Below, in pieces: positions 22,156 through 35,005 of a DNA stretch of 64,000 nucleotides. The position numbers and the translations under genes were made by a program. Position 1 is the stretch's first letter, and each line of letters starts with the position of its first letter. A model generated the notes under the pieces. It saw only the letters and a program-made list of their open reading frames with translations, ran no database searches and had not been told where the DNA came from. The DNA is taken from assembly GCF_001689125.2 (NCBI RefSeq), contig NZ_CP015405.2, forward strand, positions 5,048,501-5,112,500, in the 5' to 3' direction. Source of the DNA: Blautia pseudococcoides (lineage in GTDB: Bacteria > Bacillota > Clostridia > Lachnospirales > Lachnospiraceae).

Positions 22156-22200
22156 AAGGCTGAGGGAACGCATCACCTGCGTTCCCCCAGCCTTATTTTT
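22156..22200. terminator. bidirectional terminator
   Basis: AAGGCTGAGGGAACGC pairs with GCGTTCCCCCAGCCTT and continues into ATTTTT. It overlaps the stop codon of the minus-strand DUF3783 gene and separates the convergent units. Confidence 0.8.
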
Positions 22201-22594
22201 CCTCTTCTCTATCCATAAAATCTCTGTGTTCTTCCTCCAGCTCTTTTACAAGATGAGCAAATGTCCAGAAGCAGTTCTGGGATGTGAGGACTGCTTTTAA
22301 GGCAACGGACGGAAGTTCTCCGTTCTTCATCATACGAAGAAGGTGGTTCAGGTTATCGTCAGTGAAATTACACATAACCATAACATCCACAGGAATAGAA
22401 GGAAGGTTTTCCAGCATGGATATTTTCCGCGGAGGAAAGCCTTTAATTTTCGCCAGATATCCCACTGTCTGCAGTACATTTTGTGGGAGTATGGGAGAAA
22501 AATCAAATCCCATACGGCGTGCCGCTTTTTCCAAAACTTTTCCCTTTTCCGTCTGCCCATTGTTATAGTATAAAATATTGGGTCTGCGAATCAT
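22193..22594 (-). CDS. DUF3783 domain-containing protein
   Basis: A 133-residue soluble protein found in Lachnospiraceae and related Clostridia. It opens RRPNILYYNNGQ and has the DVMVMCNFTDDNLNHLLRMMKNGELPSVALKAVLTSQN segment typical of DUF3783, with an acidic, Arg-rich tail. The function of the family is not known. The gene stands alone between a shared terminator and a 244-bp gap that it shares with the divergent Crp/Fnr-type regulator; that gap holds no other gene that I can see. Confidence 0.75.
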   Translation of the reverse strand: MIRRPNILYYNNGQTEKGKVLEKAARRMGFDFSPILPQNVLQTVGYLAKIKGFPPRKISMLENLPSIPVDVMVMCNFTDDNLNHLLRMMKNGELPSVALKAVLTSQNCFWTFAHLVKELEEEHRDFMDREEEK

Positions 22595-23662: not shown

Positions 23663-23793
23663 TTGACAGTTGTGTCCGCATTAGAGTATACTTAACACAG
23701 TATAATTTTTGACTTTGGGACTGTAAATGGAGGTTACTGTCCATGAGGCTCCTGCTTTGCAGGGCTGTGACCAGTGACCGATTTAGAATATGA
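23663..23793 (+). promoter_or_regulatory. promoter and leader with a 16-codon upstream ORF
   Basis: TTGACA (23663-23668) and TATACT (23687-23692) are 18 bp apart. In the ~100-nt leader, TGGAGG precedes by 9 nt an ATG at 23743 that encodes MRLLLCRAVTSDRFRI and stops at 23791-23793, inside the ribosome site of the regulator. The leader also folds with GGTTACTG/CAGTGACC and CCTGC/GCAGG stems. Translational coupling is possible. Confidence 0.4.
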
Positions 23794-23803
23794 GGGATGA
23801 ATT

Positions 23804-26668
23804 GTGGCGAACATCAGTGTACATCTTTTGGGAAGGCCTTATGTAGAGGTAGACGGAGAACGTGTGAATTTTCCGTATAAGAAAGCAGAGGGTTTTTTCT
23901 ATTACCTCTGTGTGAAGAAGACAGCTACAAGGGAAGAGATCATATACGTGCTTTGGGGTGCGGACAATGAGAATGTGGGCAGAAAGAACCTGAGAGAAGC
24001 GGTTTACCAGATCAAAAAACTGCTGGGCAAAGAAATTCTGGTGACAGCAGGCCATACCAGTATCTCTCTGAATCCGGAGTGTATGCCCGATATTGACTGG
24101 GACCATATCAGTGCGGAGAACATTCTGGAAAACGAGGAAGAGGGATTTCTCTCCCATTTTATGATAAAAAACAGCTACGAATACGAAGAGTGGATCACCT
24201 CCATGCAGGAGCAGTACAATCAGGCCTTTATAAAATGTGCCAGGGAAAAGCTGTACGACGCAGATGCCACAAAAGATGTGGATCTGATTCAAAAGTACAG
24301 CAATATTCTGCTGAAGCATGATCCCTACAATGAAAAGCTGTACTATGAGATTATGGACATCTATGCGGTGAATGGAAACTATAATATGGCGATCAAGCTG
24401 TATTACGATTTGGAGAAGGTTCTGGCTGATGAACTGGGTGTGGAGCCGTCCCCGGAGATCAAGGAACTGTTTCACCGCATTTTTAATGTAAAAGGTAATA
24501 CCACTGTGGAAGCCGCTGGCTGGAATGCTCCTTTTTTGGGCAGGACTTCTGAAATATACCAGGTCAGCGAGTGTATTGTGGGCACAGGGAAAAGCCGCCA
24601 TCCTCAATGTGTGGCGATCAACGGGGAGGACGGAGTGGGAAAATCAGCCCTTCTTGATAAGGCAAAGAAGATGGTACGGGGTTATCAGATGATCCCTCTG
24701 TATGCTGCCTGCTACAGGGAGGAGTCCGAATTTTTCCTGCGTCCCTGGAATGATATCTTCTGGGAGGTGGAGCAATGCGTGGAAAACGGGCTGCTGGAGC
24801 GCTCCATCACAAAGGAGGAGCAGGCACAGCTTGACCGCTTCTTCAAAGGCAGTATTCTGGGGGATGAGAAACCCCTTGGAAGACTCACATATCAGCTTAT
24901 GGAGAAGGCCATTTTGGATATGTTCCGCAAAATTGTGGAGAAGCATAAGGTAGTGCTGTTTTTTGATGATATCCAGTGGATGGATACCATGAGCTTCCAG
25001 CTGTTGAACAGGATCTTGCTGACCCTTGGGACAGAAAGGATCCTGCTCATGTGTACCTATAACCAGAACAATGATGTGGAGGTTATGGAATCGCTGGAGA
25101 AACTGATGAAAAAGGATTATCTTCATGTGATCTCTTTGAACCCTTTTACGGAGGAGGAGACCATGGAGCTGCTTCGCAAGTATCTGCCTGAACTCAATGG
25201 GGATGAGCAGAAACAGAAAAGCATTTACCAGATGACGGATGGAAATGCATTTTTCCTGATGGAGCTGGTCAGTCTCATAAAAGAAAAAGGATATACCCTG
25301 GAAAAATCCCAGAAGACCAACAATGTGATAAAAGCCCGGCTCGCAGGTCTGCCGGAAACGGAAAATGAAGTGCTGGACTGCATGAGCATGTTTCCGGAAA
25401 AGATCAGTATTGAGGAGATAGAGCTTCTGCTGCCAAAGATGGACAGGCTGACGCTGGTCCGCATTTTGGAAAAACTGCAGGAGCGCCATTTGATCAAAGA
25501 AATCCTTGTTGGCTGGAATGTCTACTATAAATTTGAGCATCAGGTATTCCGCCAGTTTATCTACGAGCGCCAGAGCGAGGGCAAGAAACGCATGTATCAT
25601 CAAATGCTGGCTGAGTATTATGAGTCAAAGGCTGAGGGGAAGAAAAATTTTGGGTATCTTCCAATGACGATCCACCACTATGAGAAGTGCCATAATATGG
25701 TGAAAGCGTATCAATATAAGATTAAATATCTGAAAGAGTATTATACGATTGTCAATGAAAACTTTCCTGTACTTCATTGGGAGATGGAATATGGCGACGA
25801 CAACTATGGAGTGACCTTTGAGGCAAATGAACTGTTAGAATTGGCCCAAAAGGTGATCCAGTTTGACGAGGATTCTCATCAGCTGCAGGAAATGAAAAAG
25901 GAAATGTATTATATCAAGGGCCGTTTTGACATTGCTGTAGGAGATTACGCGTCCGGCATCCGCAATATTGAGGAGAGTATGAAACTGGCTGAGATGCTGG
26001 AGGATAAAAAGTCTCTTCTGAATAATTTCAAGCAGATGATTTTTTACGGGATTCAGGTGGAGGACCTGGAGCTGGTAAAAAAATACGTGGATGAAGGCCT
26101 GTCCCTGATAAATGTACAGGAACCGGATGAAAGGGGGGCCTTTATGAGGCTGAAAGGCTGGTACCTGCTCCATGAAGGCAGATATGAGGAGTCCCGCCAG
26201 ACTCTGACAGAGGCTCGCCAGATATTTGAGGATTACAGCGGAAGAGATTCCCGCTATATTATGAGCATTGCGGCATGTTATAACTATATCGGGGATGCCT
26301 GCCGTGCTACCGGTGACTACCAGTCAGCCCTGTCCTACTATAAAATTGCCATAGAAAAGGGAACCGGCAAGGTGGTCACAAACGGACTGGGGCAGTTCTA
26401 TTCCAATGCTGGCCAGATTTATTATATTCTGGGAAAGACAAAAGCAGCCCGGGAGTATCTGGAACAGGCCATCGCTTGTTTTGAAAGACACGGATATTAC
26501 TGGGGACTTGAGAGGGCTGAGGCATATATGGCACTTGTCCTTCTGGATCAGGGAGAGACAGAGCAGGCAAAAAGCCATTACAAAAAGGGGGTACAGCTCT
26601 CGGAAAAAATGAATAATCCGACCACGGTGAAAGTTTTGAAGGAGATCAAGAATAAAGCGGGATTCTGA
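23804..26668 (+). CDS. SARP/AfsR-like transcriptional regulator (wHTH-BTAD-ATPase-TPR)
   Basis: A 954-residue regulator starting at GTG 23804, 6 nt after GAGGGA. Domains in order: an OmpR-like winged helix (about 1-95) and a bacterial transcriptional activation domain (about 96-230; YNEKLYYEIMDIYAVNGNYNMAIKLYYDLEKVL...GVEPSPEIKEL). Then comes a STAND-type ATPase with Walker A GEDGVGKS (274-281) and Walker B VVLFFDDIQWMD near 387, and finally C-terminal TPR repeats (about 680-950). Such proteins are mostly known from actinobacteria, where they activate by binding direct repeats near the -35. Exactly such repeats stand in the next promoter, before hutH, 140 bp downstream. It is therefore the likely activator of the hutH operon. 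Confidence 0.88.
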   Translation: MANISVHLLGRPYVEVDGERVNFPYKKAEGFFYYLCVKKTATREEIIYVLWGADNENVGRKNLREAVYQIKKLLGKEILVTAGHTSISLNPECMPDIDWDHISAENILENEEEGFLSHFMIKNSYEYEEWITSMQEQYNQAFIKCAREKLYDADATKDVDLIQKYSNILLKHDPYNEKLYYEIMDIYAVNGNYNMAIKLYYDLEKVLADELGVEPSPEIKELFHRIFNVKGNTTVEAAGWNAPFLGRTSEIYQVSECIVGTGKSRHPQCVAINGEDGVGKSALLDKAKKMVRGYQMIPLYAACYREESEFFLRPWNDIFWEVEQCVENGLLERSITKEEQAQLDRFFKGSILGDEKPLGRLTYQLMEKAILDMFRKIVEKHKVVLFFDDIQWMDTMSFQLLNRILLTLGTERILLMCTYNQNNDVEVMESLEKLMKKDYLHVISLNPFTEEETMELLRKYLPELNGDEQKQKSIYQMTDGNAFFLMELVSLIKEKGYTLEKSQKTNNVIKARLAGLPETENEVLDCMSMFPEKISIEEIELLLPKMDRLTLVRILEKLQERHLIKEILVGWNVYYKFEHQVFRQFIYERQSEGKKRMYHQMLAEYYESKAEGKKNFGYLPMTIHHYEKCHNMVKAYQYKIKYLKEYYTIVNENFPVLHWEMEYGDDNYGVTFEANELLELAQKVIQFDEDSHQLQEMKKEMYYIKGRFDIAVGDYASGIRNIEESMKLAEMLEDKKSLLNNFKQMIFYGIQVEDLELVKKYVDEGLSLINVQEPDERGAFMRLKGWYLLHEGRYEESRQTLTEARQIFEDYSGRDSRYIMSIAACYNYIGDACRATGDYQSALSYYKIAIEKGTGKVVTNGLGQFYSNAGQIYYILGKTKAAREYLEQAIACFERHGYYWGLERAEAYMALVLLDQGETEQAKSHYKKGVQLSEKMNNPTTVKVLKEIKNKAGF

Positions 26669-26765
26669 TAAAAGGTTCCCGCTATAAAAAAATATTTTAA
26701 TTTAGCCTGATAATACGAAAAAATATTGTTCGTCAATGACGGAAGAATGACCGCGACACGAGGAA

Positions 26766-26852
26766 TTTGACGATGAAAGAGAATTGTCAGATAATTTCGT
26801 TTGTGGAATTTGACATTTATTGACGCTTTTTTGACACAGGGGTCTGTATAAT
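26766..26852 (+). promoter_or_regulatory. hutH promoter with helically phased TTGAC repeats (SARP site candidate)
   Basis: TTGAC occurs at 26810-26814, 26820-26824 and 26831-26835, spaced 10 and 11 bp. A further GAATTTGAC at 26764-26772 exactly repeats 26807-26815 at a distance of 43 bp. A consensus TATAAT lies at 26847-26852, with no -35 at normal distance (CGCTTT there). This is the layout of SARP-activated promoters. Confidence 0.65.
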
Positions 26853-26886
26853 TGCACTATAAAATATAAGGAAAAGAGGGTGCGAT

Positions 26887-28422
26887 ATGAGCAACATTGT
26901 AATTACTGGTAAAGACCTCACACTGGAACAGATTGCTTTAATTTGTCGTGAGAATGCAAAAATTGAGTTGGCCGAGGAGGCAAAACAGAACATTATCGAG
27001 TCAAGAAAAGTGGTGGATGATCTTGTTGCGGAAGAGAAGGTTGTCTATGGGATCACAACCGGGTTCGGTAAATTCAGCGATGTTGTAATTTCTCAGGACC
27101 AGTGCAAGGCTCTTCAGAAAAACCTGATCATCACCCATGCGGTTGGTGCTGGTGATCCGTTCCCCGTTGATGTTGCAAGAGGTATTATGCTGCTTAGGAT
27201 CAACAACCTGGTCAAAGGGTTTTCAGGCATTCGTCTGGAAACTGTTCAGACTATGGTTGATATGCTGAATAAAGGTGTTACTGCGTTTATCCCGGAGAAA
27301 GGTTCCCTTGGAGCTTCCGGAGACCTGGCACCGTTGTCTCATATGGTTCTGCCTATGCTGGGCCTGGGTATGGCTTACTATGAAGGAGAACTCCTTCCGG
27401 GTGCAGAGGCTATGAAGCGTGCAGGCATTCCGACCATTGAACTGTCCGCAAAAGAAGGACTGGCTCTGAACAATGGTACACAGGCTATGACAAGCGCTGG
27501 TTCTCTGGCACTGCACGACGCACTGCAGCTTCTGAAGGTTGCGGATATTGCGGATTCTCTGTGCTTCGAGGCTCAGAATGGAGTTGTGAGCGCTCTGGAT
27601 CACCGTCTGCATGATGTACGTCCTCATTCAGGACAGCTTGCGACAGCCAGAAACCTGCTGAGACTTCTGGACGGCAGCAAGAACACTACACGCCAGGGCG
27701 AAATCCGCGTACAGGATGCTTATTCCCTGCGTTGTTCACCGCAGATCCACGGCGCAAGCAAGGATGCAGTGAATTATGTACTTGACCATGTAAATATTGA
27801 GATCAACTCTGTAACAGATAACCCGATCATCTTTAAAGAAGATAAGAACGGAATCTCCGGCGGTAACTTCCACGGACAGCCTATGGCATTAAGCTTTGAC
27901 TTCCTGGGAATCGCAGTTTCCGAGCTGGCTAACGTTTCTGAGAGACGTATTGAGCGTCTGGTCAACCCGGCATACAGTGAACTGCCTGCCTTTTTAACAC
28001 CTCACGGCGGCGTCTGCTCCGGATTCATGATCGTGCAGTATTCTGCAGCAGCATTAGTTTCCGAGAATAAAGTTCTTGCACATCCGGCATCTGTTGACAG
28101 TATCCCGTCATCCGCCGGTCAGGAAGACCACGTATCTATGGGTACGATCGCTGCCAGAAAAGCAGGAGAGATCGCAAAGAATGTAAGACGTGTTCTGGCT
28201 ATGGAACTTATGGTTGCATGCCAGGGTATTGATATGCGCGGCAATAAAGGCCTGGGCAAAGGAACACAGGCTGCTTATGACTTAGTCCGCAAACAGGTTG
28301 CCACATTAGATGAGGACCGTGAATTATATGGTGATATCAACTACTGTGAAGAAATTATTAAGGATGGCTCTCTCGTCAAAGCGGTAGAGGAGGCCCTTGG
28401 CGGAGCTATAGAAACAAAATAA
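26887..28422 (+). CDS. hutH: histidine ammonia-lyase
   Basis: A 511-residue cytosolic enzyme of the aromatic amino acid lyase family that deaminates L-histidine to trans-urocanate and ammonia without cofactor. The self-made MIO electrophile comes from A143-S144-G145 in GSLGASGDLAPLSHM. Other signatures are VYGITTGFGKFSD near residue 53, NNGTQAMTS, and SVTDNPI...SGGNFHGQP near 310. Length is normal. AAAGAGGG precedes the ATG. No hutU, hutI or hutG follows; instead an NhaC-type antiporter is co-transcribed 50 bp later. Unless those genes are elsewhere, urocanate would be the end product. Confidence 0.93.
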   Translation: MSNIVITGKDLTLEQIALICRENAKIELAEEAKQNIIESRKVVDDLVAEEKVVYGITTGFGKFSDVVISQDQCKALQKNLIITHAVGAGDPFPVDVARGIMLLRINNLVKGFSGIRLETVQTMVDMLNKGVTAFIPEKGSLGASGDLAPLSHMVLPMLGLGMAYYEGELLPGAEAMKRAGIPTIELSAKEGLALNNGTQAMTSAGSLALHDALQLLKVADIADSLCFEAQNGVVSALDHRLHDVRPHSGQLATARNLLRLLDGSKNTTRQGEIRVQDAYSLRCSPQIHGASKDAVNYVLDHVNIEINSVTDNPIIFKEDKNGISGGNFHGQPMALSFDFLGIAVSELANVSERRIERLVNPAYSELPAFLTPHGGVCSGFMIVQYSAAALVSENKVLAHPASVDSIPSSAGQEDHVSMGTIAARKAGEIAKNVRRVLAMELMVACQGIDMRGNKGLGKGTQAAYDLVRKQVATLDEDRELYGDINYCEEIIKDGSLVKAVEEALGGAIETK

Positions 28423-28472
28423 ATTCTTAAACTGTCCTGCAAAAATAATTTAAGAAAAGAGGGTAAGTTTTA

Positions 28473-30011
28473 ATGGGAAAAAAAGAAAAGAAAGAACGTA
28501 CGGTTCGCCTTCCTAATTTTATCGAGGCAATTATTCCAATCGTTGTCATGATGGCACTCATGCTTTATGGCTTCGTAGGAGGAAGCGGATACAGCGATGC
28601 CCATATGCCGTTACTGGTATCTATCGTAGTGGCTTGTATCATCGGCTGTCTCTGCGGACACAGCTTTTCCGACATGTTAGCTGGTATGTTGGACAGACTG
28701 AGTGCTACAATGGAAGCCATACTGATTCTTTGTACAGTTGGTATTCTCGTGGCATCTTTCATTATGTCCGGTACAATTCCGGCCCTGATCTATTACGGCC
28801 TGGATTTACTGACACCTAAGCTTTTCCTGCCGATCGGCTGTATTATGTGTGCTGTTGTTGGTCTGGCATGTGGTTCTTCCTGGACGGCTACCGCTACCAT
28901 TGGTATTGCTTTTTTAGGTATTGGCGCAGGCCTTGGTATTAATCCTGCCATTACAGCCGGTATGATCATCTCCGGCGCATACGTGGGAGACAAATTCTCA
29001 CCACTGTCCGATACTACAAACCTGGCAGCAGCAGTTTCAGAGACGGGACTATTTGACCACGTTACGGCCATGGTCTCGACCACCGGGCCAACGTTTGTGA
29101 TCGCCCTGATCTTATATACGATCATGGGCCTGAATATTGATACATCAGGATTCGATGCCTCTGTTGCAACAGATTTACAGGCAGCACTGGCAGAAGGCTT
29201 TAATTTAAGTCCGGTTCTGCTGCTTCCTATTGTTGTGATCGTGGTTGTTTGTATCATGAAGGTACCGGGACTGGTTGGTATTTCAATCTCTGTTGGATGC
29301 GGTGTTCTGTTTGCAGCAATTTTCCAGGGTGTGCACAGCTTAGGAGAACTGTTTGACATTCTGCATTATGGTACAACATTTGAATCAACCAACGATCTGG
29401 CCAACGACTTGCTGAGCAGGGGAGGTATGGACCACCAGATGTGGACCATCAATCTGATCTTGCTGGCTGTAGCCTACGGCGGTGCTTTAGAGCGCTGCGG
29501 ATGTGTGGATACACTGTTCGGAGGTCTGAAGAAGAGACTTCACTCTGTGGGAAGTCTGATTCTTGCCACACTTCTGACATCCTTATTCTGCGATGCTACC
29601 ATGTGTGACCAGTTCCTGGGAATTGGTGTGCCGGCTCCGCTTTATGTGGACAAATATGATGAGATGGGTCTGGGACGAAATATGTTGTCCAGGACATTGG
29701 AGGACTGTGGTACTCTGTGGGCAGTTATGTTCCCGTGGACGGGCTGCGGCGCTTACCAGATGGGCGTTCTGGGAGTGCATCCGTTCATGTACTTCCCATT
29801 TGCATTCGTTAACTTGTTAAACCCGATTCTTGCGGCGATTCTGGCGTTCCTGGGACGCAATATCTTCTGGGCTGACGGTGCGTATACCAATATTTTTGGA
29901 AAGACAACCATGCGCAAACCGGCAGCAGCTCCAGCAGATAAGCATGAGCTGGCAGTGAAGAATCTTGAAGCTATGCGTGCAGCAGGTAAAGCACCGAGAG
30001 CACAGGCATAA
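28473..30011 (+). CDS. NhaC-family antiporter
   Basis: A 512-residue membrane protein with about twelve hydrophobic segments and NhaC-family signatures: GSSWTATATIGIAFLGIGAGLG, ISGAYVGDKFSPLSDTTNLAAAV, and CDQFLGIGVPAPLYVDKYDEMGLGRN in the second half. The family includes Na+/H+ antiporters and malate-2H+/lactate-Na+ exchangers. It is 50 bp behind hutH and has its own AAAGAGGG ribosome site. An exchanger for histidine and urocanate, or a proton/sodium exchanger that balances ammonia release, would fit the context; both are inference. Confidence 0.85.
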   Translation: MGKKEKKERTVRLPNFIEAIIPIVVMMALMLYGFVGGSGYSDAHMPLLVSIVVACIIGCLCGHSFSDMLAGMLDRLSATMEAILILCTVGILVASFIMSGTIPALIYYGLDLLTPKLFLPIGCIMCAVVGLACGSSWTATATIGIAFLGIGAGLGINPAITAGMIISGAYVGDKFSPLSDTTNLAAAVSETGLFDHVTAMVSTTGPTFVIALILYTIMGLNIDTSGFDASVATDLQAALAEGFNLSPVLLLPIVVIVVVCIMKVPGLVGISISVGCGVLFAAIFQGVHSLGELFDILHYGTTFESTNDLANDLLSRGGMDHQMWTINLILLAVAYGGALERCGCVDTLFGGLKKRLHSVGSLILATLLTSLFCDATMCDQFLGIGVPAPLYVDKYDEMGLGRNMLSRTLEDCGTLWAVMFPWTGCGAYQMGVLGVHPFMYFPFAFVNLLNPILAAILAFLGRNIFWADGAYTNIFGKTTMRKPAAAPADKHELAVKNLEAMRAAGKAPRAQA

Positions 30012-30047
30012 ACATGATGTCTATTGTTTTTTGAAAGGAGTATCATA

Positions 30048-30530
30048 GTGAGCGTTGAGCATCTTCCCTGGGACTCATTAGAAGGACCGATATATTATGC
30101 AAGGGATTTGAAACCACGTAAACCGTGGGTGACATATGGCTGCTGGATCTTATCCGCCGCCCTGATCATCGGCGGTATTATCACGCCTTACCGCGTGGCT
30201 GCTGTATTTGGTGTGTTGTACATACTGACACTGTTGATGAAAAAGGATACAGTCATTACCGAGAGGGGACTGGAAATTTTTTATCAGATGAGGATTACCA
30301 CACACTATGATTTTTGGAGCTGGAAAGAGATCGTTTCGGTGATCCGTGAGGACAGAAAGCATCCGGAACTGATAGCGCTCCATTTTGGCAGGGGCAATAG
30401 AAGCAAGCGCTTGTTTTTCACAAAGGCAGATGCAAAACAGATTATGGTACTGGCCAGAAAGAAGAATTCCAGAGCTGTGGTGGCGGATGCTGACACACGG
30501 CAGATGGCTGGCTACAAGAAAAAGAAATAG
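30048..30530 (+). CDS. small membrane protein of unknown function (YcxB-like fold possible)
   Basis: A 160-residue protein read from GTG 30048, 7 nt after AAAGGAG; an upstream TTG at 30024 has no ribosome site. Two adjacent transmembrane segments (about 32-70) are followed by a soluble part with DTVITERGLEIFYQMRITTHYDFWSWKEIVSVIRED, the pattern of bacterial PH-like/YcxB-type domains. It ends in a lysine-rich tail. It is 36 bp behind the antiporter, so it is the third gene of the hutH unit and may modulate it. I do not recognise a specific family. Confidence 0.7.
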   Translation: MSVEHLPWDSLEGPIYYARDLKPRKPWVTYGCWILSAALIIGGIITPYRVAAVFGVLYILTLLMKKDTVITERGLEIFYQMRITTHYDFWSWKEIVSVIREDRKHPELIALHFGRGNRSKRLFFTKADAKQIMVLARKKNSRAVVADADTRQMAGYKKKK

Positions 30531-31146: not shown

Positions 31147-32070
31147 TCAGCGGTCAACTAACTGTCCTCCGGGCAGTTTTTTTATTTCTTCCACATCATT
31201 GTAACTGCTCACGATCTCCTTCAGACGGATAATGGAATCGGTCAGGTATTTGTCCTTGTGGTATACAAAGGAAAAGTCCCTGTTCCATTCTTTGTGAGGA
31301 CCGGTGAATACATGGATCTCCTGGTTCTGGATCTCCTTTTCCAACAGACGGATGGAGATAACAGCCATACAGTTGTTGATCTGTATGGCATTTTTTATGG
31401 AATCAGGGGTGCTCTCCTCAAAGACTGTGTGGATATCAAGGCCGTGGCGGACAATGAAATTTTCAAACAGCTCTCTTGTGCCGCTGCCGGGCTCTCTCTT
31501 TACAAAATCGTGTCCGTTCAGCTCATTGATAAATAAGGTATGACGGCCATAAAAAAGATGGTCTTGGCCGCATGCAAGCACAAGCATGTCATCTATAAGG
31601 GGAATGCTGACCAGATCGCGGCTTTTGACCCTGCCCTCCACGATGCCCACATCCAGTTCCATGTTCAGAAGCTTCTGTTCTATGATCTGCGTATTATTCA
31701 TATAAGAATAAATATCAAGGTCCGGCTGTTCCTTTTTCAGGTCCCGGACTACTTTAGAGAGGATACCGCTGCCAAGGGTAATGGTGCCGCCGATGCGGAT
31801 CTTCTCCCGCCGGTTTTCCTTTCGCATGCTCTCCTCAAGGCTTTCAAACTGTGTGACAAGCTGTTTGGCAGTGATATAGAGGGTTTTGCCGTCCTCTGTG
31901 ATATATAGTTTTTTAGAGAGACGTTCAAAGAGCAGGGTCCCATAGTGTTCCTCCAGTTCCCGGATAGCCTGGCTGACGGAGGGCTGGGTGATGAAAAGCT
32001 GTTCCGCGGCCAGGCTCATCTTTCCCGCCTCTGCTACAGCCAGAAATATTTTCAGATGTCGGATTGTCAT
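31147..32070 (-). CDS. LysR-family transcriptional regulator
   Basis: A 307-residue regulator with an N-terminal winged helix (HLKIFLAVAEAGKMSLAAEQLFITQPSVSQAIRELEEHYG) and a C-terminal effector-binding domain (IRIGGTITLGSGILSKVV...VGIVEGRV). It is divergent from the flavoprotein and siroheme-protein genes, which it most likely controls. A T-N11-A type palindrome, ATAGGTAAAACCTAT, lies 17 bp upstream of its start. It resembles CysL/CysB-like activators, so a sulfur compound is a plausible effector (inference). Confidence 0.9.
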   Translation of the reverse strand: MTIRHLKIFLAVAEAGKMSLAAEQLFITQPSVSQAIRELEEHYGTLLFERLSKKLYITEDGKTLYITAKQLVTQFESLEESMRKENRREKIRIGGTITLGSGILSKVVRDLKKEQPDLDIYSYMNNTQIIEQKLLNMELDVGIVEGRVKSRDLVSIPLIDDMLVLACGQDHLFYGRHTLFINELNGHDFVKREPGSGTRELFENFIVRHGLDIHTVFEESTPDSIKNAIQINNCMAVISIRLLEKEIQNQEIHVFTGPHKEWNRDFSFVYHKDKYLTDSIIRLKEIVSSYNDVEEIKKLPGGQLVDR

Positions 32071-32087
32071 AACGAATCTCCTTTATC

Positions 32088-32102
32088 ATAGGTAAAACCT
32101 AT
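32088..32102. promoter_or_regulatory. LysR-box candidate
   Basis: ATAGGTAAAACCTAT is a perfect interrupted palindrome just upstream of the lysR-type start in the 269-bp divergent region. The rest of that region holds a hairpin (GCGAACAGT/ACTGTTCGC at 32207-32239) and no gene. Confidence 0.55.
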
Positions 32103-32206
32103 TAATTATATAATATTATATTACTTTTCTTATACATGTACAAGTGCTATACTGGATATAAAGCTAAGGAAAATAATTCCTGCTGCTGATCGCACAACAC
32201 TATCCC

Positions 32207-32239
32207 GCGAACAGTAACGAATCCTTGGTCACTGTTCGC
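32207..32239. repeat. GCGAACAGT/ACTGTTCGC hairpin in the flavoprotein leader
   Basis: A perfect 9-bp inverted repeat with a 15-nt spacer, about 100 nt before the flavoprotein start. It shares the AACAGT/ACTGTT core with other intergenic hairpins of this window. Confidence 0.5.
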
Positions 32240-32339
32240 AGGCAGGTCTGCAGATCCTAACGATTTCGGAACGGTAACGGAGACGGGAGCAGGGACCGGA
32301 TAACATGAAAAGCAAATTTGAGAAAAGAAGGTATGGGCT

Positions 32340-33974
32340 ATGAAGGTATTGATCATCGGCGGTGTAGCCGCAGGTACAAAGGTAGCAGCAAAACTGAAAA
32401 GAGAAAGCAGAGAAACAGAAGTTCTGATTCTGACCAAGAGTGAAGACATATCTTATGCAGGATGCGGGCTTCCTTATTATGTAGGGGATGTCATTCATGA
32501 GAGAAGCCAGTTGATCGTCAACACACCTCAGAAATTTGCAAAACTGACAGGAGCAGAAGTTGAGACAAGTATTGAGGTGACAGGGCTTGACCGTGAGGGC
32601 AGAAAGGTAACTGCAAAAGACCTGAAATCCGGTGAGACAAAAGAATATACATATGATAAACTGGTAATAGCAACAGGTGCGTCTCCGGTTGTACCGCCCC
32701 TTCCGGGACTGGATATGAAAAATGTATTTCTTATGAGAACTCCTGATGATGCGGAAGCGCTCAGAAAAGCAGCGGAGTCGGGGGAAATTAAGCGAGCAGT
32801 GATCGCAGGCGGTGGATTTATCGGTCTGGAAGTTGCAGAGAATCTTCAGAGCCGCGGTATCCGCACTACAGTTCTGGATATGCTCCCTCACATTATGCCG
32901 GGATTTGATCCGGAGATGGCAGAGTTTGTGGAGAATCATCTGGCAGACCAGGGGATCATGACACTTCTGGATACAAAGCTAGAGGGTGTGGAAGGCAGCG
33001 GAACGGTTGAGAAGGTTAAAACATCCAGAAGAGCCATCAAAGCCGACGCTCTGGTACTCTCCCTTGGTATCCGTGCAAATACCGCATTCCTGGCTGATAC
33101 AGGCATTGAGCTTGCACCGAACAGGACCGTTCTGGTAGATGACCATATGAGGACCAATGATGAGAATATTTACGCTCTCGGGGACTGCTCCATGATCACT
33201 AACCGCATGACACATGCCAGGGCATGGTCACCTATGGGTTCCTCAGCCAACATTGAGGGCAGGATCGCGGCACAGAATATTGCCGGTGCGGATGTTTCCT
33301 ATCCCGGTGTTCTGGGAACAGGTGTGGTAAAACTGCCGGGTCTGAATGCGGGGCGTACAGGACTTACAGAGCAGGCGGCAAAGGATGTGGGACACGATGT
33401 GGTTTCCGTTGTGGCTGTAGTGGATGACAAGGCTCATTATTATCCGGGAGCGGGTTCTTTCCTGGTTAAGATGATTGGGGATAAAACAACAGGTGAGTTC
33501 CTGGGGATCCAGGTTCTTGGAAAAGGCGCTGTGGATAAGATGGTGGATATTGCTGTAGCGGCACTGAGTCTGAAGGCCACGGTGCAGCAGCTGGAGCATC
33601 TGGATTTTGCTTACGCACCGCCATTCTCAACTGCCATCCATCCGTTTGCACACTGCATCAATATTCTTCTGAACAAGATGTCCGGTTCGTTCGAGACCTT
33701 TACTCCGGTTGAGTTTGCAGAGGGAATGGCAGAAGGTTATAAGGTGATTGACGCTTCCCTGAAACCAACCCTGGAAGGTGTGGAGTTCATGAACCTGGAG
33801 GAAGTTGACGGAGAAGTGGAAGGCCACAGCAAGGATGAGAAAATGCTTCTGGTATGTGCAAAAGGAAAGAGGGCATACATGCTGCAGAACCGCCTGAAAT
33901 CTTATGGGTATACCAATACAAAGGTTCTGGAAGGCGGAAGTACCTTTAACGGGGAAGATTTGACGGAAGACTGA
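32340..33974 (+). CDS. CoA-disulfide/persulfide reductase-like flavoprotein with C-terminal rhodanese-like domain
   Basis: A 544-residue FAD/NAD(P)H oxidoreductase. It has FAD-binding IIGGVAAGTKVAAKLKRE at the N-terminus, the single active-site Cys C42 in SYAGCGLPYYVGD typical of CoA-disulfide reductases, a second GGGFIGLEVAENL nucleotide site, and GDCSMITN. The last ~60 residues look like a shortened rhodanese domain with a candidate catalytic Cys C506 (LLVCAKGKRA). Members reduce CoA disulfide, CoA persulfide or polysulfide. It is 77 bp before a siroheme-type protein and opposite a LysR regulator, so sulfur-compound reduction is the probable job. Confidence 0.85.
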   Translation: MKVLIIGGVAAGTKVAAKLKRESRETEVLILTKSEDISYAGCGLPYYVGDVIHERSQLIVNTPQKFAKLTGAEVETSIEVTGLDREGRKVTAKDLKSGETKEYTYDKLVIATGASPVVPPLPGLDMKNVFLMRTPDDAEALRKAAESGEIKRAVIAGGGFIGLEVAENLQSRGIRTTVLDMLPHIMPGFDPEMAEFVENHLADQGIMTLLDTKLEGVEGSGTVEKVKTSRRAIKADALVLSLGIRANTAFLADTGIELAPNRTVLVDDHMRTNDENIYALGDCSMITNRMTHARAWSPMGSSANIEGRIAAQNIAGADVSYPGVLGTGVVKLPGLNAGRTGLTEQAAKDVGHDVVSVVAVVDDKAHYYPGAGSFLVKMIGDKTTGEFLGIQVLGKGAVDKMVDIAVAALSLKATVQQLEHLDFAYAPPFSTAIHPFAHCINILLNKMSGSFETFTPVEFAEGMAEGYKVIDASLKPTLEGVEFMNLEEVDGEVEGHSKDEKMLLVCAKGKRAYMLQNRLKSYGYTNTKVLEGGSTFNGEDLTED

Positions 33975-34051
33975 CAAAATGAGCAAGATTAACAACAGGA
34001 TCGCACAGGACAGGCAAGGCCATAAAAGATAAAAAGTTGGAGGAAATTAAA

Positions 34052-35005
34052 ATGGCAACATTAACAGTGAGCAAGGACGATGAAAAAAGAGTAAAAGCCC
34101 TGGGCTTTTTGAGCAACAAGGGAACGGACAATTTTTCCGCCAGGATTATCACAAAAAACGGAAAGATCACAGCAGAACAGCAGATTTGTATTGGGGAGGC
34201 AGCAAAGCTGTACGGCAACGGTGCAGTTACATATACCACACGTCTTACTATTGAAGTACAGGGAGTTCCCTATGAGAAGATTGACGAGTTCCGTGCCTAT
34301 ATCCAGAAATGCGGGCTGGACACAGGCGGTACCGGTTCCAAAGTGCGCCCTGTGGTTTCCTGTAAAGGAACTACCTGCCAGTATGGTCTTTTAGATTCCT
34401 TTGGTCTTTCAGAGGAGATCCATGATGAGTTTTATACAAATTGGCATGATGTAAAACTGCCTCATAAATTCAAAATCGCTGTGGGCGGATGTCCAAACAA
34501 CTGCGTAAAGCCGAACCTGAATGACCTGGGTATCGTTGGTCAGCTCATTCCAAACTATGATGAGGATATGTGCAGCGGATGTAAAAAGTGCGGAGTTGTG
34601 AAAGCCTGTCCTATTGATGCCGTAAAGTTAGTTGACGGCGTTATGGAACTTGACAGGGACAAATGTATCAATTGCGGACGCTGTATCGGCACCTGTCATT
34701 TTGATGCTATCGAGGACGGTACTTATGGTTATAAGATTTACCTGGGCGGTAGATGGGGAAAGAAAATTGCCATTGGTAAGCCTATGAGCAAAATTTTCAC
34801 AACTAAAGAAGAGCTTATGAGCTTGATTGAGAAAACACTGCTTCTGTACAGGGAACAGGGTAAGACAGGAGAGCGTTTTTCAGATACCATTGAGCGTCTT
34901 GGATTTGAGAATGTGGAAGCGCAGCTTATCTCCGATGAGATCCTGGAGAGGAAAGAGGAAATCCTTTCCGCCAAGCTTCATGAGGTGGGCGGAGCTACCT
35001 GCTAA
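34052..35005 (+). CDS. sulfite-reductase-like siroheme/4Fe-4S protein with ferredoxin domain
   Basis: A 317-residue cytosolic protein of the nitrite/sulfite reductase superfamily, similar in layout to the anaerobic sulfite reductase C subunit. The siroheme-[4Fe-4S] ligands would be C104/C109 and C147/C151 (GGCPNNC). The first pair is C-x4-C, against the usual C-x5-C. Then come two ferredoxin-type clusters, CSGCKKCGVVKACP (174-186) and CINCGRCIGTCH (205-215). TGGAGG precedes ATG 34052. It is co-transcribed with the flavoprotein, which may pass electrons to it. Sulfite or a related oxyanion is the likely substrate. Confidence 0.8.
   Translation: MATLTVSKDDEKRVKALGFLSNKGTDNFSARIITKNGKITAEQQICIGEAAKLYGNGAVTYTTRLTIEVQGVPYEKIDEFRAYIQKCGLDTGGTGSKVRPVVSCKGTTCQYGLLDSFGLSEEIHDEFYTNWHDVKLPHKFKIAVGGCPNNCVKPNLNDLGIVGQLIPNYDEDMCSGCKKCGVVKACPIDAVKLVDGVMELDRDKCINCGRCIGTCHFDAIEDGTYGYKIYLGGRWGKKIAIGKPMSKIFTTKEELMSLIEKTLLLYREQGKTGERFSDTIERLGFENVEAQLISDEILERKEEILSAKLHEVGGATC

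Follow-up and report, generated by a model that had tools for sequence, protein, structure and literature searches.

HutC and HutP are known regulators of histidine utilization (hut) genes. For Clostridium, the sigma-54 regulator HiaR is listed for the hiaL-hyp-hutH genes (PMC6615313). Blautia coccoides is reported to convert 13C-histidine to glutamate and acetate without making imidazole propionate, and to grow on urocanate, while hutHUI transcription in Otoolea symbiosa is reported to be inhibited by glutamate (PMC13320830); the words "regulator" and "transcription factor" are absent from the main text of that report, and here we propose a candidate regulator. Large regulators of the Streptomyces antibiotic regulatory protein (SARP) class, such as AfsR, PolY and RslR3 of Streptomyces, are described as proteins of about 1000 residues with BTAD, nucleotide-binding and tetratricopeptide repeat (TPR) parts (PMC10972967). 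The published rule for SARP operators is that of direct repeats 11 bp apart, with the 3' repeat 8 bp before the -10 element and the 5' repeat over the -35 position (PMC4393881). We analyzed a 64,000-nucleotide stretch of the Blautia pseudococcoides genome (contig NZ_CP015405.2, positions 5,048,501 to 5,112,500; the window), in which a gene for a 954-residue regulator precedes hutH, encoding histidine ammonia-lyase (HAL), an NhaC-type transporter gene and a gene for a small membrane-associated protein. This regulator probably acts as a SARP-type activator on a hut regulon that is split between the hutH and hutU operons. The features of the block are as follows.

23804..26668, + strand: large SARP-type regulator (BTAD_W), 954 aa (Pfam/NCBIfam, AfsR-chain profile match, structure model)
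26820..26837, + strand: proposed operator, TTGACGC (26820) and TTGACAC (26831), 11 bp apart (sequence, conservation)
26847..26852, + strand: -10 element of the hutH promoter, TATAAT, 9 nt after the second heptamer (consensus scan, spacing check)
26887..28422, + strand: hutH, histidine ammonia-lyase, 511 aa, with Ala-Ser-Gly (MIO, 4-methylideneimidazole-5-one) triad (TIGR01225, triad, 1gkm alignment)
28473..30011, + strand: NhaC-type transporter, probable histidine permease, 512 aa (TIGR00931, PF03553, conserved slot behind hutH)
30024..30530, + strand: small membrane-associated bPH_7 protein, 168 aa, start codon uncertain (PF20794)
23663..23692, + strand: promoter-like pair TTGACA-18-TATACT before the regulator gene (consensus scan, 11/12)

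Regulator, proposed operator and probable split hut regulon

The gene set and placement given in the original prediction (a regulator with winged helix-turn-helix, BTAD, ATPase and TPR parts, then hutH, an NhaC-type gene and a small membrane protein) are borne out by the open reading frames (ORFs) and their profile scores. The regulator consists of an N-terminal winged-helix-like part, a BTAD at residues ~128-226 (PF03704, 49.5 bits; cut-off 22.1), a STAND/AAA ATPase from ~243-409 onward (AAA_16, 53 bits; cut-off 32.6) and a TPR half at ~590-954 (TPR_12, 57.7 bits; cut-off 30.1). It has the BTAD, the STAND/NB-ARC-type ATPase and the C-terminal TPRs of a large SARP in roughly 1000 residues, and its profile matches the AfsR chains 8k60, 8jke and 8hvr (E 5.2e-7 for 8k60). 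Its score against the AfsR equivalog NF053617 (44.2 vs a cut-off of 1430) marks it as a relative of AfsR and not as AfsR itself. A structure model from a 75-sequence alignment has a mean pLDDT of 85.2 (an earlier one from 7 sequences was of poor quality), and the nearest solved chain, the top Foldseek match, is the STAND-TPR protein 6mfv. In residues 1-110 of the model (pLDDT ~80-93), three strands are seen along with three helices and a pair of strands, the layout expected of a winged helix; the fold-search rows are mostly TPR or ATPase proteins. PF00486, the OmpR-type winged-helix DNA-binding domain, was not among the Pfam matches of the regulator at E <= 0.001. In a protein search, a homologue labelled [Clostridium] symbiosum was 52% identical over 75% of the query.

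The hutH product scores 655.9 bits against TIGR01225 (cut-off 539.15), has an intact MIO motif (GSLGASGDLA), and its pocket motifs align with those of Pseudomonas putida HAL (1gkm), whose pocket residues are Tyr53, His83, Asn195, Arg283, Phe329 and Glu414; its nearest named relatives are Blautia records (92-94%). The 168-aa protein is a bPH_7 protein (190.4 bits; cut-off 25). Because the gaps are 50 nt between hutH and nhaC and 12 nt between nhaC and the bPH_7 gene, these three genes likely form an operon.

The promoters of hutH and of a distant hutU share a direct repeat, TWGACGYTTTTTWGAC, which has an 11-bp period and ends 8-9 nt before the -10 element; in the window, a further TTGACAT begins at 26810. 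No -35 element was found by the consensus scan at 16-18 nt from the hutH TATAAT, as would be expected if this promoter depends on an activator. In the B. pseudococcoides genome the pattern, with up to one mismatch allowed, occurs at only two sites, before hutH and before hutU (1 for the reversed control). Across 20 genomes of the genus there are 34 exact sites, 17 before window-type hutH, 14 before hutU matches and 3 others: in G031 an intact hutU follows the site, in G002 a partial hutU ORF follows it, and in G012 the site is at a contig end where the gene is not visible and the leader resembles that of hutU. Overall, at least 32 of the 34 precede hutH or an intact hutU, while none of the 3 HAL_A-type hutH genes in the genus has a site. 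The distance from repeat to -10 is 8-9 nt at 33 of 33 sites (three of them read by eye, the script having picked an earlier TATAAT), and a 16-bp motif is 97% identical across the 20 hutH promoters of the genus, vs 60% in the flank. The repeats have the published SARP operator geometry, with the regulator as the presumed binding protein. The genome also has two hutU copies (L018:11481-13523 and L020:15863-17905) that encode identical 680-aa proteins, and only the one preceding hutI carries the operator.

Gene order in relatives links the regulator to the same genes. A homologue of the 954-aa regulator precedes window-type hutH in 20 of the 20 genus genomes (at two of these loci the BTAD profile itself gave no match on the contig), and the arrangement is therefore not chance. 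We read gene order in the nine nearest of 80 loci. The order regulator-hutH-nhaC-bPH_7 recurs in a Blautia metagenome-assembled genome (L039), L040 has the first three genes, and in L038 a different ORF follows hutH; a bPH_7 homologue stands behind NhaC in L039, L043 and L235 and not in L040. In Clostridium transplantifaecale (L041) and Clostridium sp. (L042), hutI-hutU is divergent from regulator-hutH, as it is in [Clostridium] aminophilum (L043), where hutH (placed by homology search, ORF picking having missed it), nhaC and bPH_7 follow the regulator. At the remaining three loci (L044, L045 and L046), the stretch examined contains no such regulator. In another genus (G378), bPH_7, nhaC, hutH and the regulator gene are divergent from hutU-hutI. 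Since regulator and hutH adjoin hutU-hutI in these four genomes of other genera (L041, L042, L043 and G378, with nhaC present in two), the window block appears to belong to a hut cluster split in Blautia.

The other part lies at 2.197-2.210 Mb. There, hutU (434.9 bits; cut-off 375), hutI (450.9; cut-off 298.15), ftcD (425.6; cut-off 221.25) and an FTCD_C gene (Pfam, 230.4; cut-off 24.5) are followed on the same strand by genes for citrate-lyase-like subunits, GlmS, GlmL, GlmE and methylaspartate ammonia-lyase. GlmS, GlmL, GlmE, methylaspartate ammonia-lyase and CitF score above their cut-offs, CitE and FchA below, and a 90-aa protein has no NCBIfam match. The hut pathway and the methylaspartate route are complete in this genome.

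In the mechanism we propose, the winged helix and BTAD of the regulator would bind the two repeats 11 bp apart, 8-9 nt before the -10, and recruit RNA polymerase, while the STAND ATPase and TPR half would sense an inducer, most likely histidine or urocanate. The regulator would thereby turn on two distant operons, hutH-nhaC-bPH and hutU-hutI-ftcD-fchA, with the methylaspartate genes downstream of the latter probably under the same control. Histidine would be imported by the NhaC-type protein and converted by HutH to urocanate, which HutU, HutI and FtcD would carry to glutamate for fermentation by the methylaspartate route.

Several observations weigh against this proposal. The evidence comprises genes, families, operator sequence, spacing and conservation, from which we infer binding, direction of control, inducer, operon extent and transport. 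In the fold searches, no solved structure matched the N-terminal domain of the regulator or confirmed its fold. A site is found at 20 of 20 window-type hutH genes (17 exact, 3 with one mismatch), a count that is partly by construction because the pattern was derived from these promoters. With up to one mismatch, the genus has 43 sites vs 65 matches for the reversed control, so that the position of the sites is informative and their total count is not; among the 9 sites with one mismatch, 3 stand before hutH and the other 6 lie elsewhere. No site was found for 10 of 24 hutU matches in the genus, a count that leaves out G031; by our own classing, 3 of the ten are of HutU_A type, 3 lie beside cluster C (described below) and 4 are at contig ends. 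Finally, a regulator like that of the window stands on contig 33 of G439 with no HAL gene in the 15 kb fetched, and the G378 hutH promoter has a poor -10 (TAGACT).

Transporter, operator reader and the fate of urocanate

The transporter scores 393.3 bits against the NhaC profile TIGR00931 (cut-off 370), matches PF03553 and stays below the cut-off of the ArcD-type exchanger NF052307 (375.3 vs 650); a PDB search with this protein gave no match. Behind window-type hutH, the slot is filled by NhaC at 8 of 20 loci, by another transporter-like ORF at 11 and by a contig end at 1; of these 11 ORFs, that of L123 matches PF03553 and PF13726, as does the ORF in L041, and the other ten were judged by N-terminal likeness. 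Given this conserved slot and the precedent of Staphylococcus aureus SAUSA300_0846, which is annotated as NhaC-type and reported to be a histidine transporter (PMC10817146), the protein is most likely a histidine permease. Should the regulon be as proposed and the protein be an ordinary sodium/proton antiporter, one that keeps pH or sodium in balance while histidine is fermented, the narrow pass of the NhaC equivalog cut-off would be in keeping; we regard this as unlikely in view of the other transporter-like ORFs in the slot and of the staphylococcal protein, and a TIGR name is no test of substrate.

It is less probable still that the repeat is read by another regulator and that the BTAD protein controls something else. 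The distance of 2.3-2.9 Mb, depending on direction, between the hutU operon and the regulator gene leaves room for such a reading. Against it stand the agreement with the published SARP geometry (PMC4393881), the different repeats with the same spacing at other BTAD-HAL clusters (by a post hoc rule given below), and the lack of the repeat at the hutH-hutU locus L045, which has no BTAD gene in the stretch examined. In addition, exact sites are at background order-wide, with 7 of 295 genomes, two of them of this genus, vs 11 reversed-control matches. Three promoters fetched after the pattern was set, those of G378 hutH, G378 hutU and G439 hutU, carry repeats under the looser rule; G331, the same assembly as L042, was left out of the count.

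For urocanate reductase, we considered 23 PF00890 matches in the genome. Three span most of the model (NadB-like, fumarate-reductase-like and HI0933-like), the fumarate-reductase-like one scoring 213.6 vs a cut-off of 285.45 for flavocytochrome c; no UrdA-like protein was recognised among these three, with the 20 short matches unexamined and FMN_bind not searched. On the condition that the other hut genes were absent from the genome, the original prediction had histidine stop at urocanate plus ammonia, with NhaC possibly exchanging histidine for exported urocanate, a precursor for makers of imidazole propionate, or balancing pH. This dead-end module, for which the gene order in the window and a score near, though below, the ArcD cut-off would speak, is hardly credible and was rejected, because the complete pathway is present elsewhere with the hutH operator before hutU (the very result that the prediction had named as contrary to it) and because B. 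coccoides is reported to consume urocanate and to make no imidazole propionate (PMC13320830). What stands is the pairing of a SARP/AfsR-like regulator with hutH and NhaC, for which operator geometry and conservation make control probable. The word "lone" fits hutH within the window and not beyond it. The genome is a single contig of 5,128,746 bases and holds six full-length HAL-family (PF00221) genes and one fragment, as well as three urocanase matches, hutI, ftcD and FTCD_C.

Other HAL-family genes and large BTAD regulators

A second HAL-family group lacks the Ala-Ser-Gly triad (GSVGY or GSVGEAD-like instead). It includes 4 of the 6 full-length genes of the genome (loci L019, L021 and L022), and the triad is likewise absent in 23 of 23 further HAL-family ORFs checked (L139-L145, L214-L217, L220-L225, L237). 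Many of these genes adjoin BCCT, MTTB or AcnX genes, and they are candidate betaine or trimethylamine lyases hidden under the histidine ammonia-lyase name. In cluster C (L021:6493-13381), an ergothionase-like lyase occurs with a BCCT transporter and a molybdenum hydroxylase; its score of 512.1 bits to Treponema ergothionase 6s7j, vs 251.4 for the next chain, and the replacement of the MIO triad by GSVGEAD suggest a probable ergothionase, an enzyme held to be restricted to few genera after BLAST with a Burkholderia query (PMC13405746). In cluster A (L016:10475-17455), another HutH-class gene is accompanied by a HutU of its own (58.6% to the main one), by a BaiCD-like flavin oxidoreductase and by a membrane protein with a Gate domain; the cluster may represent a further imidazole pathway. 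At C1:3113231-3115221 (L023), a 107-aa HAL fragment adjoins a BCCT gene; in G009 (L221) the HAL gene beside this neighbour is complete.

The 20 genus genomes contain 52 BTAD matches, 38 of them in frames of at least 600 aa. A PF00221 gene lies within 7 kb of 33 of these 38 large regulators, vs 0 of the 14 small ones. The five unpaired large ones comprise a window-like regulator cut by a contig end, a D-type regulator beside its molybdenum hydroxylase and three beside a molybdenum hydroxylase, two of which have an NhaC-like gene as well. Loci L208, L209 and L211 of other genus genomes show this arrangement of large BTAD gene and molybdenum hydroxylase with no HAL gene; L208 and L209 include an NhaC-like gene whose product is 39% identical to that of the window. 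In the B. pseudococcoides genome, all five loci with full-length HAL genes have a large BTAD, accounting for 5 of the 7 BTAD matches there. Viewed from the lyases, a large BTAD lies within 16 kb of 21 of 23 HutH-class PF00221 genes (>600 bits; the remaining two show a regulator stretch upstream). The count is 8 of 27 in the class of 500-600 bits and 8 of 11 in that of 380-500 bits, a 54.5-bit fragment having been left out of the classes. Universal pairing was rejected, since 19 genes of the 500-600-bit class lack a large BTAD at this distance. Stepwise co-diversification of lyase and regulator paralogues is not supported: HAL_A is the nearest HAL to that of the window (64.8%), while BTAD_A is the most distant of four regulators (24.5%).

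In a blind scan (7-mers 6/7 identical, 11-bp period, -10), the promoters of hutH and of clusters C and D matched, and a weak pair came up before BTAD_A. The pair picked at hutU was a different, chance-like one, and neither HAL_A nor cluster B had a match. With a T-first form of the rule, no match came from 13 further stretches, including HAL_A and B. A looser rule, NRAYR-N6-NRAYR-N8..10 plus -10, was set after reading HAL_A and B by eye and is post hoc for all clusters. It matches 5 of 6 own promoters (those of hutH, hutU, HAL_A and clusters C and D; the promoter of B matches only if the -10 is relaxed) and, among orthologous promoters fetched, 1/1 for A, 5/5 for C, 3/3 for D and 3/3 for E. 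The own-genome repeat cores are TGACG/TGACA for hutH, AGACG/AGACT for hutU, TGACG/TGACA for A, CAACG/CAACG for C and TAACA/CAACA for D. The chance rate of this rule is 3-11% per promoter in Markov samples, with 14 matches in the window on both strands, and it also matches unrelated promoters. These results suggest, and do not prove, one operator code with variants across BTAD-HAL pairs. We see about even chances for a broader proposal, that Blautia and a few relatives have an expanded family of large SARP activators. Each would control a separate catabolic operon of the HAL-superfamily or molybdenum-hydroxylase type through a particular NRAYR-N6-NRAYR variant, and each would sense a different substrate, an imidazole or a betaine: histidine for one, probably ergothioneine for another, and for the rest substrates of the MIO-less lyases.

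Around the block, the promoter-like pair before the regulator gene has a weak score (22 such 11/12 sites in the stretch vs 13.2 expected), and repeat scans of that promoter found no SARP-type repeat. A 133-aa protein (22193-22594, strand -) is encoded divergently upstream of the regulator; proteins at the same position in L039, L205 and L210 have N-termini similar to it by eye. At 31147-35005, the gene of a LysR regulator diverges from that of a CoA-disulfide-reductase-like protein whose C-terminal part matches rhodanese; next comes a sulfite/nitrite-reductase-like Fe-S protein; the LysR and CoA-disulfide-reductase-like genes are also downstream of the block in L040. Searches for tRNA, Rfam families and plasmids had no matches.

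Comparison with known systems

Our literature search, conducted largely outside full texts, recognised no description of a BTAD regulator of hut genes. Two things are new here: the proposal that a SARP-type regulator controls a hut regulon in two parts, through an operator present at only two sites of the genome, and the observation that regulators of this type are paired more widely with HAL-family operons. Gut bacteria that ferment histidine are competitors of the makers of imidazole propionate, and in O. symbiosa glutamate is reported to repress the hut genes (PMC13320830). A named candidate regulator with two promoter sites is now on offer. The several pairs of paralogue and operator provide a means to learn what the TPR half senses and how BTAD proteins choose their DNA. 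If the expanded family is real, SARPs would be a class of catabolic regulators in gut Firmicutes, with a recognition code that could be solved by comparing paralogues.

MalT has a C-terminal LuxR-type helix-turn-helix, and, unlike this and other STAND-type inducer-sensing activators, the Blautia regulator has its DNA-binding part at the N-terminus, together with a BTAD. With HutC, HutP and HiaR it would share pathway-specific control of hutH, but it belongs to an unrelated protein family and its proposed operator is of another kind. The enzymes and route are the same as in the oxidative histidine pathway reported for B. coccoides and O. symbiosa (PMC13320830). The regulator resembles AfsR, PolY and RslR3 in size, BTAD, ATPase and TPR parts, and in a proposed operator of 11-bp repeats 8-9 nt before the -10, although the repeat differs from the AfsR box CGTT(T/C)ATCG (PMC10972967). 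Unlike those proteins, the regulator scores far under the AfsR equivalog cut-off and is found in a Firmicute beside a catabolic operon, which would move large SARPs, best known from antibiotic clusters, into Firmicute amino-acid catabolism.

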